From: Aquificota bacterium
Lineage (GTDB): Bacteria; Aquificota; Aquificia; Desulfurobacteriales; DQVG01
DNA: 44,184 nt
Assembly: GCA_027002265.1 (NCBI GenBank)
Contig: JAMOTM010000020.1
Coordinates: 1-44,184 of the forward strand
Direction of reading: 5' to 3'
Positions 443 to 35,728 of this stretch are shown one piece after another. How positions within the stretch are numbered: the stretch's first letter is position 1; each line of letters opens with the position of its first letter. The notes beneath the pieces are model-generated. The model had not been told where the DNA came from, did not search any database, and saw only the letters and a list, made by a program, of their open reading frames with translations. A program made the position numbers and the translations under genes.

Positions 443-530
443 GCCCGGGTGGCGGAACTGGCAGACGCGGGGGACTCAAAATCCCCTGGGCTTTACGCCC
501 GTGCGGGTTCGAATCCCGCCCCGGGCACCA
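443..530 (+). tRNA. tRNA-Leu(CAA)
   Basis: This is a complete class II tRNA. The acceptor stem pairs GCCCGGG with CCCGGGC and the CCA end is encoded. The anticodon stem GGGGA/TCCCC closes the loop CTCAAAA, giving anticodon CAA at 477-479, which reads the leucine codon UUG. A variable arm of the long leucine type follows (GGGC...GCCC), then the T arm with GGTTCGAATCC. All stems pair well, and the GC-rich gene stands out from the AT-rich flanks. Confidence 0.96.
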
Positions 531-6816: not shown

Positions 6817-8208
6817 ATGAAAACCATAAAAAATAAAAAAGATTTTGTAAAGCTTATTATATTACCTATCTTTGCAGTTATACTCTTTATAACTATTTCG
6901 TTTTTTATATTTCTAAATATTTTTGAAAACAAAAAGAGAGATATTGTAGAAAAATATAAAGTTCTTACTGAAATTAATTTAAAGTTAAATTTAGATAAAG
7001 ATTTTCAAACCTTAAATAATCTATTAAATTCATATGCCATATGGGATGATTTTTATAAGGCTTTAAAACAAAATAATTATACTTTTTTTAATAATATTTG
7101 GGAACTTGATAAAGAAGTTGCAGATTGTGACAGTTATGGAATTATAAAAGAAAATGGAAAAGTTTTTTTATCAAAAAATTTTATTTTTAATAAAACTCAA
7201 ATTGAAAGTATATTATCTTATTTAAAATCTCAGGTAAATATAGGTGATGAATATACTTTTTTTAATTTCTTTATAAAAAATGAAAAAGATAAAAAATATT
7301 ACTTTGTAGCTTTATCTCCTTTGGCAAATACAAAGGGTTATATCTTATCTTATGACTTTTTATATTTTGCTAAAAAACTTAATCCAAAAGAGATATCCCA
7401 AATAACTTTGTCAAAAGTTCAAATATCTTCCAAAAAATTAAAAAATAGCTTAATAAGTTATCCTTTAAAAGATTTTTCAAATACTACAATCGGATATATA
7501 AATATCTTTTTTCCTTTTTGGTTAAAAAGTTCTTTTGATTTAGTTATGCATTTTGCTTGTTTTCTTACCTTTGTAGCTATTGTATTTGGAATTAGTGTAA
7601 TTTACTTTACAGCTTACATAGTATTTAAAAAGAAAGAGGAAGATATAAAAAAATTTTTAAAAAAGATAAAAACAATTGCTTCCGATCAAGATAAAATAAA
7701 TGATGATTTATATAACGAAATTGTTAAACTAATTTTTTATGATCCATTAACTCAAGCTTATAATAGAAAATATTTTTTCTATATTTTAAAAAAGGAGATA
7801 GAAAAATCTCGTAGATTTAAGTATCCCCTATCTTTAATATATATAGATTTAGATGATTTTAAAAAAATTAATGATACTTATGGACATAGAGTTGGAGATG
7901 AAATCTTGAAATATTTTTCAAATTTAATTTTAAAAAATATAAGAAAAGCAGATATTTTTGCTAGACTTGGGGGAGAAGAATTTGCAATTTTATTACCCGA
8001 AATGAAAGTAGAGGAAGCAAAAAAAGTAGCTGAAAGGCTTTTAGCTTTAATAAAAGCTACACCTTATGAAGGTATTAAACTATCTGCATCTATTGGTATA
8101 ACTCAATTAAGAGATGATGATACTTTAGAAACCTTTTTAGACAGAGCTGATAAAGCCATGTATTTTGCTAAAAATTCTGGAAAAGGGAGAATAAAAGTTC
8201 TGCTATGA
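6817..8208 (+). CDS. Membrane diguanylate cyclase with CHASE4-like sensor
   Basis: Predicted to make cyclic di-GMP from GTP in response to an extracytoplasmic signal. A first membrane helix is at about residues 12-34, then an outer domain with YAIWDDFY (Trp76-Asp77-Asp78), the hallmark of CHASE4 sensors. A second helix at about 243-268 and a short charged linker lead to the GGDEF domain. The active-site motif is GGEEF at 385-389, and the inhibitory I-site RxxD is intact at Arg376-Asp379, so feedback by c-di-GMP is expected. No good ribosome site is seen before the ATG. The stop overlaps the rimO start by four bases. The signal sensed cannot be read from sequence. Confidence 0.92.
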   Translation: MKTIKNKKDFVKLIILPIFAVILFITISFFIFLNIFENKKRDIVEKYKVLTEINLKLNLDKDFQTLNNLLNSYAIWDDFYKALKQNNYTFFNNIWELDKEVADCDSYGIIKENGKVFLSKNFIFNKTQIESILSYLKSQVNIGDEYTFFNFFIKNEKDKKYYFVALSPLANTKGYILSYDFLYFAKKLNPKEISQITLSKVQISSKKLKNSLISYPLKDFSNTTIGYINIFFPFWLKSSFDLVMHFACFLTFVAIVFGISVIYFTAYIVFKKKEEDIKKFLKKIKTIASDQDKINDDLYNEIVKLIFYDPLTQAYNRKYFFYILKKEIEKSRRFKYPLSLIYIDLDDFKKINDTYGHRVGDEILKYFSNLILKNIRKADIFARLGGEEFAILLPEMKVEEAKKVAERLLALIKATPYEGIKLSASIGITQLRDDDTLETFLDRADKAMYFAKNSGKGRIKVLL

Positions 8209-9679: not shown

Positions 9680-11494
9680 ATGGATATGTTTATATTTAGT
9701 TCTTGTGATAAGGAACTTAAGAAATTAAAGAAAAAAATAAAAGAACTTGAAAAGGAACTTGAGGAAAAAAGAAAACTTTTAGCTGAGCTTGAAAAAAATA
9801 ATGAAGCATATAAAGCTGAAATAAACAAATTAAGAAGGGAAATAGAAACCTTAGAAGAGGAACTTAAAAGATATAAGGAAGAAGTAAAAAAACTTCAAGA
9901 AGAAAAAAAGAAGCTTGAAGAAGAAGCCTATTCTTGGAAATGGATGTTTTCTAATTTAACTATTTGGGAAGGTTTTGTTCTGGCAGATGCTAAAACCTTA
10001 AAGTTTTGCTATATAGACAAAGCAGCTAAGGAAATTCTAAGCAAAATGGTTCCTTATGTAAAGAAAAAATATAACGTAGATCTTTTTGAGGCCCTAAAAG
10101 AAAAAGATTTATATGAGTTTCATGAAATTTTTGGAGTGCAAGATAAGGTTAAAAAAGCCCTAGAAGATTTAAAACCAGGCAAAATTTCAAATGAACTTGA
10201 ATTAGATTTAGAGGATATTTACGTAAAATGGGTATATTTTTGTGTTCCAGATAAATATAATAATAAGCTTTATTATGGTGTTGTTTTAAAAGATGAATCC
10301 TTAAAGAAAAAATTAATTTTGGAAAATTACAAGAAAAAAATATCTTTAACTTCAGTTCTAAAAAATATATCTGAAACTCTTTTAGAAGTCCTTGAAAATA
10401 AAATTATCTCTTTTTCTATAGAACAAGTTGTAGAAAAAATTGTAGAACAAATGAAAATAATTAGAAATTTAACAGCAAATATTCAGCGAAACTTGGATAA
10501 TCTTGTAAATGTTTTTAATAGATTAAAAGAAAATTATGAAAAAGTTATAAAAAATGTAGAAGATGGAAAAGAAGTTGTATCAGTTGCAACAAATAAAATT
10601 ATAAAAATAAAGGAAATTACTCAAGAACTATTTGAAGTGGTTTCTACCTTAAAAAAACAAGCTGAAAAAATTAATCAAGTGGTCCAAGTTATTACATCTA
10701 TTACCGAACAAACTAATTTACTTGCTTTAAACGCGGCAATAGAGGCGGCTCGTGCTGGAGAAATGGGAAGAGGATTTGCAGTAGTTGCAGACGAAGTTAG
10801 AAAACTTGCAGAGAGAACCAATAAAAGTGCAGAAGAAATTAGTCAAGTTGTGGAAGAAATGAAAGAAATTGTTGGAAAAATATATCAAACTACAAGTGAA
10901 GGTGTAAAGGAAGTAGAAGAAGGTTATCAAAATATTGAAAATGTTAAAAAAGTTTTTGAAAAAATATACAATTTAGCTCAGGAAGTGTTATCTATTTTAA
11001 ATAAGCTTTGGGACACCATTGAAATTCAGAAGAAAGATATTGATAATATAGTAAATGAAATTTTAATTATGGAAAACAATATAAATGATATAAATAAACT
11101 TTCAGAAAAAATTAGAGCATCTGCCAGCAGATCTGCAAGAAAAACTTTAGAAATTTGGAAAAATTCTTCTGAGTATGCTTCAGATGGTATGGAAGAAAAT
11201 GAATTAAAAATCATTAAAGCCGTAGATAAATTAATGAGAGCTATTTATGAATATTCAGAGAAATTTGATGATAGTATTTTACTTGATCTTGAAGACGAAA
11301 TTATGTCTTTACCTTCCGAGAAAATAAAAAATGCAATGGAAGACTTAAAAAATTATTTAACCTCTTTAAAAACTGGAAATAAAATAGAAGATTTTAAAGC
11401 TATTATCTCCAAACTTCAACTTATAATAGAGGAAGCCGCAAAACTTCTAGAGGAAACTATAAAAGAAAATTTAAATAACTTAAAAAAGCTTTAG
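9680..11494 (+). CDS. Cytoplasmic methyl-accepting chemotaxis-type receptor
   Basis: The 604-residue signalling protein lacks membrane helices. Residues about 10-88 form a long Lys/Glu coiled coil. Residues about 90-225 look like a PAS-type sensor ([18 protein letters not shown]), of unknown ligand. The signalling domain follows, with the highly conserved hairpin tip [19 protein letters not shown] near residue 343 and the adjoining [16 protein letters not shown] ~110-residue helical C-terminal extension ends the protein. The annotated ATG is only 2 bases from GGGGG (9673-9677); the ATG at 9686 (third codon) has better spacing and may be the true start. No che gene adjoins. thrS follows after 17 bases, so the two may share a transcript. 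Confidence 0.92.
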
Positions 11495-20768: not shown

Positions 20769-21101
20769 TTACCACCAACCTCTACCGAAACCTCTTCCTC
20801 TTCCAAAGCCTTGCCCGCGTCCCCATCCACGGCCACAACCTCTTCCTTGACCACGACCGAATCCGCGTCCAAAACCTCTACACCAGCCCCAAAATCTTCC
20901 AAACCAGTTTCCAAATCCTCTCATTTCTTCCACCTCCTCAGAAGCTTTTTCAGGAATATCCACAGGAGCTCCAATATCAACTCTAACTATATTTGGAGAA
21001 CCACATTTTTCACATTTTATAGACCATTTTGGAATTCCAAAAGGAACTTCAAATTCATGTCCACAATCCAAACATTTAAATTTTCTTGTAGGTACTTTCA
21101 T
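20769..21101 (-). CDS. Zinc-ribbon protein with Arg-Gly-Phe-rich tail
   Basis: The 110-residue protein has two parts. Residues 1-45 are a zinc ribbon: CLDCGHEFEVPFGIP, then CEKCGSPN, giving a CxxC...CxxC site. An acidic linker (EKASEEVEEM) leads to residues 60-110, a low-complexity tail built on GFGRG/GWGRG/GQGRG units with several Trp, Phe and two Cys. RGG-like tails often bind RNA or drive condensation, but zinc ribbons with such tails are uncharacterised as far as I know. The gene is one transcript with its own operator-promoter and terminator, pointing to a regulated, possibly metal- or redox-linked, role. The start is backed by AGGAGG. Confidence 0.82.
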   Translation of the reverse strand: MKVPTRKFKCLDCGHEFEVPFGIPKWSIKCEKCGSPNIVRVDIGAPVDIPEKASEEVEEMRGFGNWFGRFWGWCRGFGRGFGRGQGRGCGRGWGRGQGFGRGRGFGRGWW

Positions 21102-24356: not shown

Positions 24357-24962
24357 TTACTCTTGAGTTTCAGTAGCTTCTTCTTCGCTTGTTTCCTCTT
24401 CAGAAACTGTTTCTTCTGGTTCAGAAATAACAACTACAGTTTCATCAGGTGGATTTAAAATTTGAACTCCTTCTGGAACAGGAATATCTTTAACGTGAAG
24501 AACATCCCCTAATCCAAGATTAGAAATATCAACCACAATTTTCTCAGGAATTCTATCTGGAAGACATTTAATATCAAGCTCTCTCATAAGAATTTCAAGA
24601 GTACCACCTTCTTTTACTCCTTTTGGTTCACCTACAAATTCAAGTTCTACAACAGTTTCAATAGGTTCATCCATTTTTACTTCTTGAAAATCTACATGAA
24701 CAGGATTAGTTCCAAGATAATCATATTGAACGTCTTTTAAAATTACCATTCTTTTATCTTTGCCTTCATCAATGGAAAGTTCAATAAGACCATGGTAATG
24801 AAGTAAATCTTTTAAAATTTTTTGAGAAATAGCTATAGGAGTGGTTTCTGGTCTTCCTCCGCCATATATTATGGCTGGAAGAAGGCCCTCCCTCCTTAGC
24901 TTTTTAGCAATTTGTTTTCCGGTACCTCTACTTTTAGCTTCAAGTTTAATAATTTCTGCCAT
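24357..24962 (-). CDS. rplY: 50S ribosomal protein L25 (Ctc form)
   Basis: 5S rRNA-binding protein of the long, general-stress type (Ctc/TL5). Residues 1-90 are the L25 domain (GTGKQIAKKLRREGLLPAIIYGG, VLKDVQYDYLGTNPVHVDF) and 91-180 the C-terminal TL5 domain (EGGTLEILMRELDIKCLPDRIP). The last ~20 residues are almost all Glu, Thr and Ser. Length 201 residues. AGGAGG lies six bases before the ATG. It is the first gene of the operon running to rplI and is preceded by a good extended -10 promoter. Confidence 0.97.
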   Translation of the reverse strand: MAEIIKLEAKSRGTGKQIAKKLRREGLLPAIIYGGGRPETTPIAISQKILKDLLHYHGLIELSIDEGKDKRMVILKDVQYDYLGTNPVHVDFQEVKMDEPIETVVELEFVGEPKGVKEGGTLEILMRELDIKCLPDRIPEKIVVDISNLGLGDVLHVKDIPVPEGVQILNPPDETVVVISEPEETVSEEETSEEEATETQE

Positions 24963-25121: not shown

Positions 25122-25148
25122 TTACCTTGCCCTTGAAGGGCAAGGTAA
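25122..25148 (-). terminator. Terminator of the histone-fold gene
   Basis: A perfect 12-base stem, TTACCTTGCCCT and its complement, with a 3-base loop. On the minus strand it is followed by CTTTTTTCTTTT, four bases after the stop codon of the DUF1931 gene. Confidence 0.9.
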
Positions 25149-25152
25149 AAAC

Positions 25153-25602
25153 TTACATGGTTAAGTCCAAGATTCTTCCTGCTCTTGCAATATCTTCACT
25201 TGAAGGTTGTCTACAACCTTCGTCAGTTTCTTTTATAATTCTTGCTAATATATATAAAAGGGTTCCAACAATTTCAGGAAGTTTCTTTTCAAGTTCAGCT
25301 TCTAAAGGATATTTTAAAGGTGGTTTGGAAGCTAAAAATTCTAAAATAGGTTCTATATCTATTTCTTGTTCTAAAGCTCTAAATTTATGAATAGACTCTA
25401 AAAATCCTTTTGTGAGCGGAACATCACATTCCCAGATAACATCTCTACCGTTATAAGATGCGTTTCTTTCACCAATAAGAAGAAGATCATAAAGTTTTTT
25501 TTCTACGATGTCTGTAATTTCTTTTGCTTTATTTTTGTCTAAATCTAAGCCTGCAGCTTTTCTAAATAAACTTTCAAGTTGTCCAAAACCTACAATAGCC
25601 AT
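25153..25602 (-). CDS. DUF1931 histone-fold (pseudodimeric) protein, Aq_328-like
   Basis: The protein resembles the DUF1931 family whose Aquifex member Aq_328 has a double histone fold in one chain. Residues about 8-65 (numbering from the start chosen here) read as a first fold: ESLFRKAAGLDLDKNKAKEI, a long helix with VEKKLYDLLLIGERNA, then NGRDVIWECDVPLTKGF, where Arg-Asp matches the histone Arg-Asp clamp before the last helix. A second half (LEKKLPEIVGTLLYILARII, then PSSEDIARAGRIL) repeats the pattern. Whether it binds DNA is unproven; the protein is acidic overall. An ATG at 25617 overlaps the GGAGG (25611-25615); the ATG at 25602 is seven bases past it and is the better start, giving 149 residues. 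Confidence 0.85.
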   Translation of the reverse strand: MAIVGFGQLESLFRKAAGLDLDKNKAKEITDIVEKKLYDLLLIGERNASYNGRDVIWECDVPLTKGFLESIHKFRALEQEIDIEPILEFLASKPPLKYPLEAELEKKLPEIVGTLLYILARIIKETDEGCRQPSSEDIARAGRILDLTM

Positions 25603-25797
25603 GTAAAATACCTCCATTTTTTTATTCTATTTTTTATTTTATAATAACAAATTTAACTTAATTAACTTTTTCTGTAAGTTTAAATATAGCAAAGAGCTCA
25701 TAAATTTCAAGATAAGCTTTATCTTTAAATTTTTTTTAAAGAAATTAAAATTATGTAAATATAAGAAAATAAATTTTAATTTTACAAGGGTGCTAAT

Positions 25798-26640
25798 TTG
25801 GAAAATATTTATCTTCAAAATGCTATTTTTGATATTCTAAAACTGATTATTTTTTATTTAAAGAAAAGTATTTTTGCTATCTTTATTTTATTTTTTGTAT
25901 CTTATTACCTTTTGAAAAAATTAAAAATAAGATTTGTAAAGGAACTTCCAGAAATTACAATCAAAGCTTATCTTCAACTTATTTTTATAAGTTTAGTTCT
26001 TCTTTTTTTATTAAAAATAGAATTTAAGTATGCTTTTTTACTAGTTGCAGCTCTTATAACTTATAATGCTGCAAAGATAAATTTAAGTAGATTTCCAATT
26101 GAAGATAAAAAAGAAAAAAGGAAGTTTTTAAAATTTATTTGGATTTCATATTTTTTAATAAGTTTGTTTGGAATTTTAGTTTTATTTACCACAGACTTAT
26201 TTAGTTTTTCCCCAGAAGTTATAATACCTTTAATAGGTATTAGTGTTGCAGGAGCAATGCGAGGAGTAAATTTACTTATTTCAAGTTTATTTAATAAAGT
26301 AAAAGAAAATAAAGATATTTTAGAAAGTGTTTTTGCCTTAGGTGGTTCCCAAAAAGATGCTTTAGAACTTTTAAAAGAGGAGGTTTTGTACTACTCTACC
26401 TTAAATACCAGAGATATGCTCAAAGCTGCTGGCATTGTTCATATTCCAGGTGTTATGGTAGGACTTTTACTTGCAGGAACTCCTCCTATAAAAGCTGCAA
26501 CTATTCAATTTTTAGTTTTAAATTTGATATTATTTAATGTTGTAGTAAGCAGTTTTTTTGCTTTTAAATACTTTTCAAATTATTTCCCTTATCCTAAATT
26601 TTTTTTAGATAAAGAAAATAAAGAAAAAAAAGGAGGATAA
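25798..26640 (+). CDS. FetB/UPF0014-family ABC transporter permease
   Basis: The 280-residue inner-membrane protein has about seven hydrophobic helices. It matches UPF0014/FetB (iron export, formerly YbbM) through YLQLIFISLVLLFLL, PEVIIPLIGISVAGAMRGVN, ESVFALGGSQKDALELL, and the conserved AGIVHIPGVMVGLLLAGTPP followed by an alanine-rich helix. FetB normally pairs with the ATPase FetA; no ATPase gene adjoins, so the partner is elsewhere or the protein works differently. Start is TTG with AAGGG nine bases before it. The stop is followed after 1 base by the TPR gene. Confidence 0.82.
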   Translation: MENIYLQNAIFDILKLIIFYLKKSIFAIFILFFVSYYLLKKLKIRFVKELPEITIKAYLQLIFISLVLLFLLKIEFKYAFLLVAALITYNAAKINLSRFPIEDKKEKRKFLKFIWISYFLISLFGILVLFTTDLFSFSPEVIIPLIGISVAGAMRGVNLLISSLFNKVKENKDILESVFALGGSQKDALELLKEEVLYYSTLNTRDMLKAAGIVHIPGVMVGLLLAGTPPIKAATIQFLVLNLILFNVVVSSFFAFKYFSNYFPYPKFFLDKENKEKKGG

Positions 26641-33613: not shown

Positions 33614-35728
33614 TTATTTCTCGTCCTCCTCTTTATCAATTTCCTTTAAAAGATCTTTTGAAAATCTTACTACTTTATTCTTTCCTGTATTTTTTGCTTT
33701 ATAAAGAGCAATATCCGCATACTTTACGCACTTCCAAAAATCTTCACTATCAGTTGGGAAGTGAGCTGCTCCAATAGAAACAGTTTTCTTTAAAACTCCT
33801 ATTGGAGTAACAATATTTAATTTTTCTACATTTTTTCTGATTCTTTCAGCTACATCTACAAGTTTATCTGGTTCACAATTGTAAAGTAAAACTAAAAATT
33901 CCTCTCCCCCATATCTTATTACATAATCGTTTTTAGTTACGCTCTTCCTTATAGTTTCAGCAATAGATTTTAAAACAATATCCCCAATATCGTGTCCATA
34001 AGTATCATTTACTTTTTTAAAGTCATCAATATCTATAAGAAGAATACCAAGAGGTATATTATATTTCTTTAGAATTGGAATTTGACGTTCTACAAACTCA
34101 TGCAAGAAAATTCTATTATAACAACCAGTTAAAGTATCTTTTACCATACGGTCATGAATTTTTTTCATTAAAAGTTTTGCTTCGATAATAGGTAAAGCTG
34201 CTCTTAAATAACTAACAAGTAAATTGATCTTTTTATCTAAGTGTCTTACATCCTCAGTTTTATCTGCTACAAGTTGAATTAAAGCAAAAAGTTTTCCAGA
34301 TAAGAAAAGAGGAATACAAATATGATGGTACTTATCATAGCAACAAAAATATTTGCATAAATTTGGGAATTCTTTATAAGATATTATAATATTGCTTGTT
34401 TTTACAGCTCTACATTTTTCTGGCTCGTTATTTATAAGCTCATTACAAAATGGAACATCGTAACCTTTTAAAAATTTTAAAGTAAATTTTTTTGTATCCT
34501 CATCTACCATATAGAAAGCATACTTATCAAATCTAAATTTCTTTTCTATTAAATTTCGAATTCTATTTAGAACATCTTCTAAAGTTTCGTCATTTTCTAT
34601 AGCCTTTCTAAATCTATCAAGCTCTCTTAAATTATTTAATAAAGTAATTAAAGAGTCTACAATAATAGTAAGCTTTAAAATTTCATCCTTTACTTTTTCA
34701 TGAGATTTAGTATCAAGATACTTAGAGTACTCTTTCTTTACAATCTCAAATTTTTCAATAATATTACTAATAGGTTTAGTAACGATATAATAAAGTCCAA
34801 CATTAGATATTAAAACTGCAAAGAAAAATAAAAGAATAATAGTAAGGTTTATATAACTAATTGTTTTATCTAAATCGTATAAAAGATTTGATATATCTTT
34901 TATAATTACGATTCTTCCTATTTCTTCACCATTAAAACTATAGAGAGGATATATATAAATAAATTTACTTTTATATATCTGAGATATTTTATTTAAATCT
35001 ATGTTTGAAAGAAGTGTTAAATAAGCATTTGAATTAAAACCTATAATAACGTAATTGCCTACAATAGGATAGCTTTTTAAAATTTCCTCAGTTGGTACAT
35101 ATTCCCTTTTTATTAAAAATATAACATTTGCGTCTTTTATTATATTTTTTATATTTCCAAGACCTATACTAACTCCGACACTTCCAATTAATTTGCTATT
35201 ATATACAAGTGGATATACAGCTGCTGCAGCTAAACCATTAGAGGTTACAATAAAACTTTTTATAAAACGATTATTCTTCTCTACATTTAGTATTAAATTT
35301 TTCATTTTTTGAAGATAACTTTCTGTAACCATATCTGGAGGAAGAACATTGAAAAATGGTTTAACTCCTTTCAAATAAAAGAAAATTTCGAAATCTTTAA
35401 AATTGGTATTTGTTTGAATTTCAGCTTCAAGCTCAGAATATTTCTTCTTAATATACTTTATATCTCTTTTTAAAAATGCATCTTTTAAATCCTTGTCTGT
35501 TGCAATGCTGGCAGCTAAACTAAAGCTAGTATCTAAAAGGGACTTTTCGTATCCAGATAAAAAACTATAATACTCAGTGTTTAAAATAGAAAGTTCTTTT
35601 TCCAATAAAATATTCCTTACTTTTGAAGTTATTCCAAAAGCAAATAAGAAAAATAATAAAAAGAAAATAAAAATTGTAAAAAATATCTTTCCTTTTAAGG
35701 TTCTAATTTTGAAAAAGGTATTTATCAC
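33614..35728 (-). CDS. Membrane diguanylate cyclase with outer sensor and GAF domain
   Basis: The 704-residue protein has a first membrane helix at about 15-35, a Cache-like outer sensor (about 36-288, with NGLAAAAVYPLVYNSKLIGS), a second helix at about 291-314, a HAMP-like linker, and a GAF domain (about 372-510). The GAF region is rich in cysteine (CNEL, EKCRAVK, LCKYFCCYDKYHHICIPL). The GGDEF domain has GGEEF at 607-611, so it is probably an active c-di-GMP synthase. The I-site place reads Thr598-Lys-Asn-Asp601, with Thr for Arg, so feedback inhibition may be lost. The start is GTG with GGGAGGA about 10 bases upstream. It follows mrp by 55 bases. Confidence 0.92.
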   Translation of the reverse strand: MINTFFKIRTLKGKIFFTIFIFFLLFFLFAFGITSKVRNILLEKELSILNTEYYSFLSGYEKSLLDTSFSLAASIATDKDLKDAFLKRDIKYIKKKYSELEAEIQTNTNFKDFEIFFYLKGVKPFFNVLPPDMVTESYLQKMKNLILNVEKNNRFIKSFIVTSNGLAAAAVYPLVYNSKLIGSVGVSIGLGNIKNIIKDANVIFLIKREYVPTEEILKSYPIVGNYVIIGFNSNAYLTLLSNIDLNKISQIYKSKFIYIYPLYSFNGEEIGRIVIIKDISNLLYDLDKTISYINLTIILLFFFAVLISNVGLYYIVTKPISNIIEKFEIVKKEYSKYLDTKSHEKVKDEILKLTIIVDSLITLLNNLRELDRFRKAIENDETLEDVLNRIRNLIEKKFRFDKYAFYMVDEDTKKFTLKFLKGYDVPFCNELINNEPEKCRAVKTSNIIISYKEFPNLCKYFCCYDKYHHICIPLFLSGKLFALIQLVADKTEDVRHLDKKINLLVSYLRAALPIIEAKLLMKKIHDRMVKDTLTGCYNRIFLHEFVERQIPILKKYNIPLGILLIDIDDFKKVNDTYGHDIGDIVLKSIAETIRKSVTKNDYVIRYGGEEFLVLLYNCEPDKLVDVAERIRKNVEKLNIVTPIGVLKKTVSIGAAHFPTDSEDFWKCVKYADIALYKAKNTGKNKVVRFSKDLLKEIDKEEDEK

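Follow-up and report, generated by a model that had tools for sequence, protein, structure and literature searches.

The results of this analysis indicate that relatives of a DUF1931 protein, encoded by a window (the whole stretch of DNA analysed, 44,184 nucleotides) from an Aquificota bacterium, lie among heat-shock and stress-tolerance genes in at least six phyla, and that proteins of this family probably aid stress survival. Since these relatives occur in stress-tolerance and chaperone clusters, a role other than that of a histone is indicated. We therefore lean towards the view that the DUF1931 protein acts in the cytoplasm by binding proteins, as part of the bacterial stress-tolerance repertoire (protein quality control and envelope and redox stress), and not as a DNA packager. 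The window gene adds an ordinary new member to a known family; what is new in the analysis is the tie of the family to stress-tolerance gene sets. The role of DUF1931 is given as unknown in the accessible passages of published work, and no mention of a link to stress was found in the consulted passages of the open-access papers naming DUF1931.

The gene lies on the minus strand (25153-25602) and encodes 149 amino acids between an ATG at 25602 and a stop codon at 25153-25155, while the plus-strand reading of the same interval contains many stops. ATG 25602 was taken as the start because inspection identified a Shine-Dalgarno sequence, GGAGGT, 7 bases ahead of it (25610-25615, minus strand) and because the resulting N-terminus, mostly M-A-[IV]-V-G, is common to close relatives of the protein. 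A weak candidate for a sigma-70-like promoter lies at 25683-25710 (minus strand; TTGAAA-16-TATATT, the second hexamer being preceded by TG); 8 such sites were found in the region against 5.1 expected. Behind the gene, a strong intrinsic terminator (25122-25148, minus strand) was predicted with a 12-pair stem, a 3-base loop and a T-rich tail, followed by CTTTTTTCTT; the scan gave 2 terminator-like sites in the 1-kb region compared with 0.2 expected in shuffles. A repeat-family origin of the stem was rejected, since a repeat search of the window found no second copy. The upstream neighbour, a member of the UPF0014 permease family (25798-26640, plus strand; PF03649, 1.6e-39), is divergent; the sister genome L093 shows the same arrangement. 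The downstream neighbour, encoding ribosomal protein L25/TL5 (24357-24962, minus strand), is co-directional and heads a run of translation and single-strand-binding genes. Because the terminator lies ahead of L25, which runs in the same direction, and the upstream gene points away, a one-gene DUF1931 transcript is plausible; the gene is likely to form a single-gene transcript, in line with the initial annotation, which had described a single-gene unit ended by a 12-base-stem terminator.

No known RNA element was found near the DUF1931 gene, the sole Rfam match in the window being a tRNA gene at 443-527 (plus strand). Elsewhere, the window encodes a chemoreceptor-like signalling protein of 604 aa (9680-11494, plus strand) that has a long coiled coil in its N-terminal part; on inspection it has no obvious membrane segment and may be cytoplasmic. 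Also encoded are two membrane proteins (6817-8208, plus strand; 33614-35728, minus strand) whose C-terminal GGEEF signatures make them, on inspection, likely diguanylate cyclases. A small zinc-ribbon protein with a long G/F/W/R-rich tail (20772-21101, minus strand) matched Zn_ribbon_8 at 5.9e-7, under the curated cut-off.

The protein matched DUF1931 (PF09123) over its full length (E 1.6e-54, model positions 1-138 of 138), with a score of 184.3 bits against a curated cut-off of 21.8 bits, and its closest solved structures by phmmer were TTHA1479 (1WWI; 3.8e-38) and Aq_328 (1R4V; 2e-15). A structure predicted from 64 natural sequences (pLDDT 91.7, pTM 0.88) contains helices at residues 6-17, 23-50, 65-78, 84-90, 102-126 and 135-148, that is, a short-long-short arrangement occurring twice. 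In a Foldseek search with this model, 1WWI (TM 0.85) and 1R4V (TM 0.84) were the top matches, followed by single-chain H2A-H2B fusions (TM about 0.6) and the Methanopyrus double histone; the histone domain of Son of Sevenless (SOS) was a weak match. The window protein is thus modelled as two histone folds in one chain, an acidic pseudodimer. The initial annotation had recognised the Aq_328/DUF1931 pattern with two histone folds per chain and had suggested a structure prediction against Aq_328 and archaeal histones; the family match, the two solved structures and the paired histone folds of the model bear this out.

TTHA1479 (TT_C1115) of Thermus thermophilus (PDB 1WWI, 1WWS) resembles the window protein in family, length and fold, shares 43% identity with it and keeps the R53/D60 pair. 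Its relatives in Thermus, however, sit in a DnaK-ClpB-Hsp20-Trx-exchanger cluster, whereas the window gene stands alone. PMC13140390 discusses TT_C1115 together with other DUFs whose transposon hit rate in Tn-seq was low. Aquifex aeolicus Aq_328 (PDB 1R4V) is likewise of the same family and fold but is only 30% identical to the window protein; together with its paralogue it lies on a long branch, and the window protein is nearer to Thermus and Campylobacterota members. In the tree, the window protein was placed among Aquificota and Campylobacterota proteins, and the Thermus proteins and the plasmid copies described below fell into another clade; the Azospirillum plasmid copy was left out because of its in-frame stops. 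No viral relatives of the protein were found.

The host genome is 1.39 Mb in size and 95%-complete, and its relatives are Aquificota; the window is one entire contig of it. Among named relatives, a Desulfurobacteriaceae metagenome bin of the same genus (L093, 93% identity) is the nearest. The host genome has a single HU gene and a single DUF1931 gene, a search for a second DUF1931 copy having found none. The DUF1931 gene stands alone among UPF0014, TPR, L25 and translation/single-strand-binding genes. Elsewhere, DUF1931 relatives lie with YfdX, HdeD, Hsp20, Clp disaggregase, Trx, a KefB-type exchanger, PsiE, and M48 and DegP-type proteases, as in the stress-tolerance islands termed tLST; DUF1931 is absent from the tLST gene list given in PMC8290217. 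The window locus does not qualify as an island of this type: no tLST-like context (chaperone, YfdX/HdeD, Trx or KefB-type genes) was found there. A degenerate tLST was also rejected, because the neighbours are housekeeping genes and their order is the same in L093. Hsp20 and UPF0114 are present in the host genome away from the DUF1931 locus, and YfdX (PF10938) and HdeD/DUF308 (PF03729) had no match in the 95%-complete genome. Since the gene stands alone and the genome carries neither YfdX nor HdeD, we infer the stress role from the relatives, by homology, together with the protein partner and the transfer of this role to the window copy.

A scan of 84,980 species genomes yielded 68 DUF1931 loci, from Aquificota, vent Campylobacterota, Thermaceae and Chloroflexota, and all locus neighbours were clustered and then named with Pfam. 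In Campylobacterota, the order on one strand was Crp-like regulator, YfdX, DUF1931, HdeD-like DUF308, DUF505 and AhpC-type peroxiredoxin. The gap between YfdX and DUF1931 was 3-99 bp (17 loci, 3 of them of the Persephonella type), and that between DUF1931 and HdeD 9-22 bp (12 loci). This Campylobacterota stress operon has a DUF505 protein (about 620 aa, Pfam 3e-236) as a constant member, encoded downstream of DUF1931 and HdeD (L059-L079). In Persephonella and its kin, YfdX lies 1-3 genes ahead of DUF1931 and UPF0114 follows it directly (10 loci, gap 21-101 bp); in some other Hydrogenothermaceae an M48 protease gene lies directly upstream of DUF1931. In Thermus, DnaK-GrpE-DnaJ-ClpB come first, then a gene run with two Hsp20, ferritin, AhpC and thioredoxin, and then DUF1931, the close order being AhpC-thioredoxin-Hsp20-DUF1931-PsiE-TrkA_C-Na/H exchanger-SDH-type protease-rhomboid. 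In Chloroflexota, an HtrA-like protease gene is directly upstream. Stress-gene neighbours were seen in both clades of the DUF1931 tree; gene neighbours indicate association and not mechanism. Stress genes were absent at the locus of the same-genus relative and at Desulfurobacteriaceae loci, where DUF1858-type and CorA-like genes adjoin DUF1931, and no stress neighbour was found at loci L057, L069, L071 and L092.

The distribution of DUF1931 in Aquificota is patchy, the gene being missing from near-complete genomes (G002, G007, G008, G012) and from most of family f4 while close relatives carry it. DUF1931 is therefore dispensable there.

The presence of DUF1931 was also compared with that of YfdX. 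Among 150 Campylobacterales genomes, DUF1931 was found in 37 and YfdX in 63; YfdX was present in 37/37 genomes with DUF1931 versus 26/113 without it (Fisher p 1.9e-18, in a test that ignores phylogeny). The two genes were within 5 kb of each other on the same strand in 20 of the 37 genomes. The corresponding figures for 61 Aquificota genomes, with YfdX counted when over the cut-off, were 9/24 with DUF1931 versus 1/37 without (Fisher p 5.6e-4, likewise ignoring phylogeny).

In a translated search covering 72,556 plasmids, 21 carried DUF1931, and the number was 24 when an actinobacterial query was used. DnaK, ClpB, GroEL or Hsp20 was encoded within 12 kb in all 12 of the 12 plasmid regions examined. 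On Rhodococcus and Nocardia plasmids, DUF1931 is the last gene of a same-strand series consisting of general stress protein, DnaK, GrpE, DnaJ, CbpM, ClpB, TrxA, Zn finger, FAD oxidoreductase and DUF1931. On Trichormus and Nostoc plasmids, its neighbours are GroEL, Hsp20, thioredoxin and DnaK, and the Trichormus locus also has GroES and two YfdX genes; an Aquicella plasmid has the order Hsp20-Hsp20-DUF1931. The Aquicella gene is split by a Tn3 transposon (L106:4869-10324), the surrounding chaperone genes being kept; the Azospirillum copy (L107:10001-10462) is degraded by in-frame stops inside a kept HdeD-GrpE-DnaK-ClpB-Hsp20 cluster. The chance that five plasmid lineages would each carry the gene near a chaperone island was roughly estimated at 3e-5, the presence of the island on the plasmid being granted. 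Taken with the chromosomal loci, it appears on balance that DUF1931 proteins are a general, unrecognised component of stress-tolerance islands, including mobile plasmid chaperone islands, in which the histone fold would serve as a stress adaptor or chaperone and not as a packager.

These contexts bear on two other readings. The first is a narrower version of the stress-tolerance role, in which the double histone fold binds lipids or membrane proteins, as in the SOS histone domain, and works with small membrane stress proteins as their partner in the cytoplasm. The next gene indeed belongs to a small membrane-protein family in three lineages (DUF308/HdeD and UPF0114 at the short gaps given above, and PsiE in Thermus), and the SOS histone domain, the weak Foldseek match, binds lipids according to a section of PMC11390915. 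However, soluble chaperones and redox proteins adjoin DUF1931 on the actinobacterial, cyanobacterial and Aquicella plasmids, and the window copy has no membrane-protein neighbour of this kind, so we regard this narrower role as rather doubtful. The second reading is that the gene has an unrelated function and owes its place in stress islands to chance or to shared horizontal transfer. The gene stands alone in the window and in several relatives, and since the Thermus and plasmid proteins form one clade, some of the contexts share ancestry. On the other hand, stress genes are present in all the contexts, in Campylobacterota, Persephonella, Thermus, Actinomycetota, Cyanobacteriota, Aquicella and Chloroflexota, even though gene order and partners differ among them; the approximate chance estimate for the five plasmid lineages and the complete co-occurrence with YfdX in Campylobacterales also argue against a passenger, which is accordingly improbable.

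Whether the histone-like shape implies DNA packaging was judged from the residues that contact DNA in histones. PMC10627809 describes two conserved histone features, the RKTV motif in loop L2 and the RD clamp. In the alignment of 64 sequences, loop L2 of the first histone fold (residues 53-60, R-D-V-I-W-E-C-D; 25423-25446, minus strand) contains R53 and D60, which are invariant in 64/64 sequences and spaced like the histone RD clamp. The residue after R53, a position held by lysine in canonical histones, is D or E in 60/64. In the second fold, loop L2 (residues 131-136, R-Q-P-S-S-E; 25195-25212, minus strand) has R or K at position 131 in 64/64 sequences, then a variable residue and then mostly P or V, with E136 in 60/64. 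At the RKTV site, the window protein therefore reads RDVI in the first half and RQPS in the second; the NGRDVI and PSSEDIARAG stretches singled out by the initial annotation are both present. The acidity that it had pointed out extends to the whole alignment, with a pI of 4.67-5.59 across all 64 sequences, the window protein included, compared with 9.86 for the host's one HU.

No canonical histone Pfam model matched, DUF1931 being the sole match at E up to 1. Membership of the canonical histones was rejected on the lack of a PF00125 or PF00808 match, the absence of an RKTV-type L2 motif and the low pI. The window protein thus shares the histone fold with canonical archaeal and eukaryotic histones and with the bacterial HBb and HLp, and has a pair resembling their RD clamp in its first half, but unlike them it lacks RKTV, is acidic, is unmatched by PF00125/PF00808 and forms a pseudodimer in a single chain. 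The DUF1931 family is also reported to be without DNA-binding residues in excerpts of PMC11390915, PMC12701072 and PMC13140390. The DNA-associating histone role implied by the initial annotation is therefore not upheld, since the DNA-contact motif is absent, canonical histone models are unmatched and the family papers report the binding residues as missing; the term "bacterial histone" holds for the shape of the DUF1931 protein only. A nucleoid-associated histone that organises or protects DNA through a non-canonical face of the pseudodimer, possibly under stress only, would agree with the modelled fold, with PMC10627809 (Fig. 6a; correction PMC11521991), which reports that the genes of Aquifex and Thermus are highly expressed, and with the place that a DNA-protecting protein could have in stress islands, but it is quite unlikely given the acidity of all the aligned sequences, the loss of RKTV in both halves, the unmatched histone models, the residues reported missing and the genome's own basic HU.

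A cytoplasmic stress role exercised through protein contacts is preferred because the protein is acidic, has lost the DNA motif and, on inspection only, shows no signal-peptide-like sequence at its start. The pseudodimer would act as an adaptor or a small chaperone-like partner, retaining the first-half RD-clamp pair but not the usual DNA-contact residues. It may dock on the stress proteins that are encoded beside DUF1931 elsewhere, either the membrane proteins HdeD, UPF0114 and PsiE or the DnaK/ClpB/Hsp20 machinery. In the window organism, it would be supplied from a stand-alone gene with its own promoter candidate and terminator.

The structure of Aq_328 was released in 2004, and DUF1931 proteins are still counted among bacterial histones. 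With a consistent link to DnaK, ClpB, Hsp20, YfdX and HdeD gene sets across several phyla, the label "function unknown" gives way to a concrete and testable claim, namely stress survival with a protein partner. If this is true, a histone fold would be at work outside chromatin in bacteria, and a candidate part would be added to mobile stress-tolerance islands.
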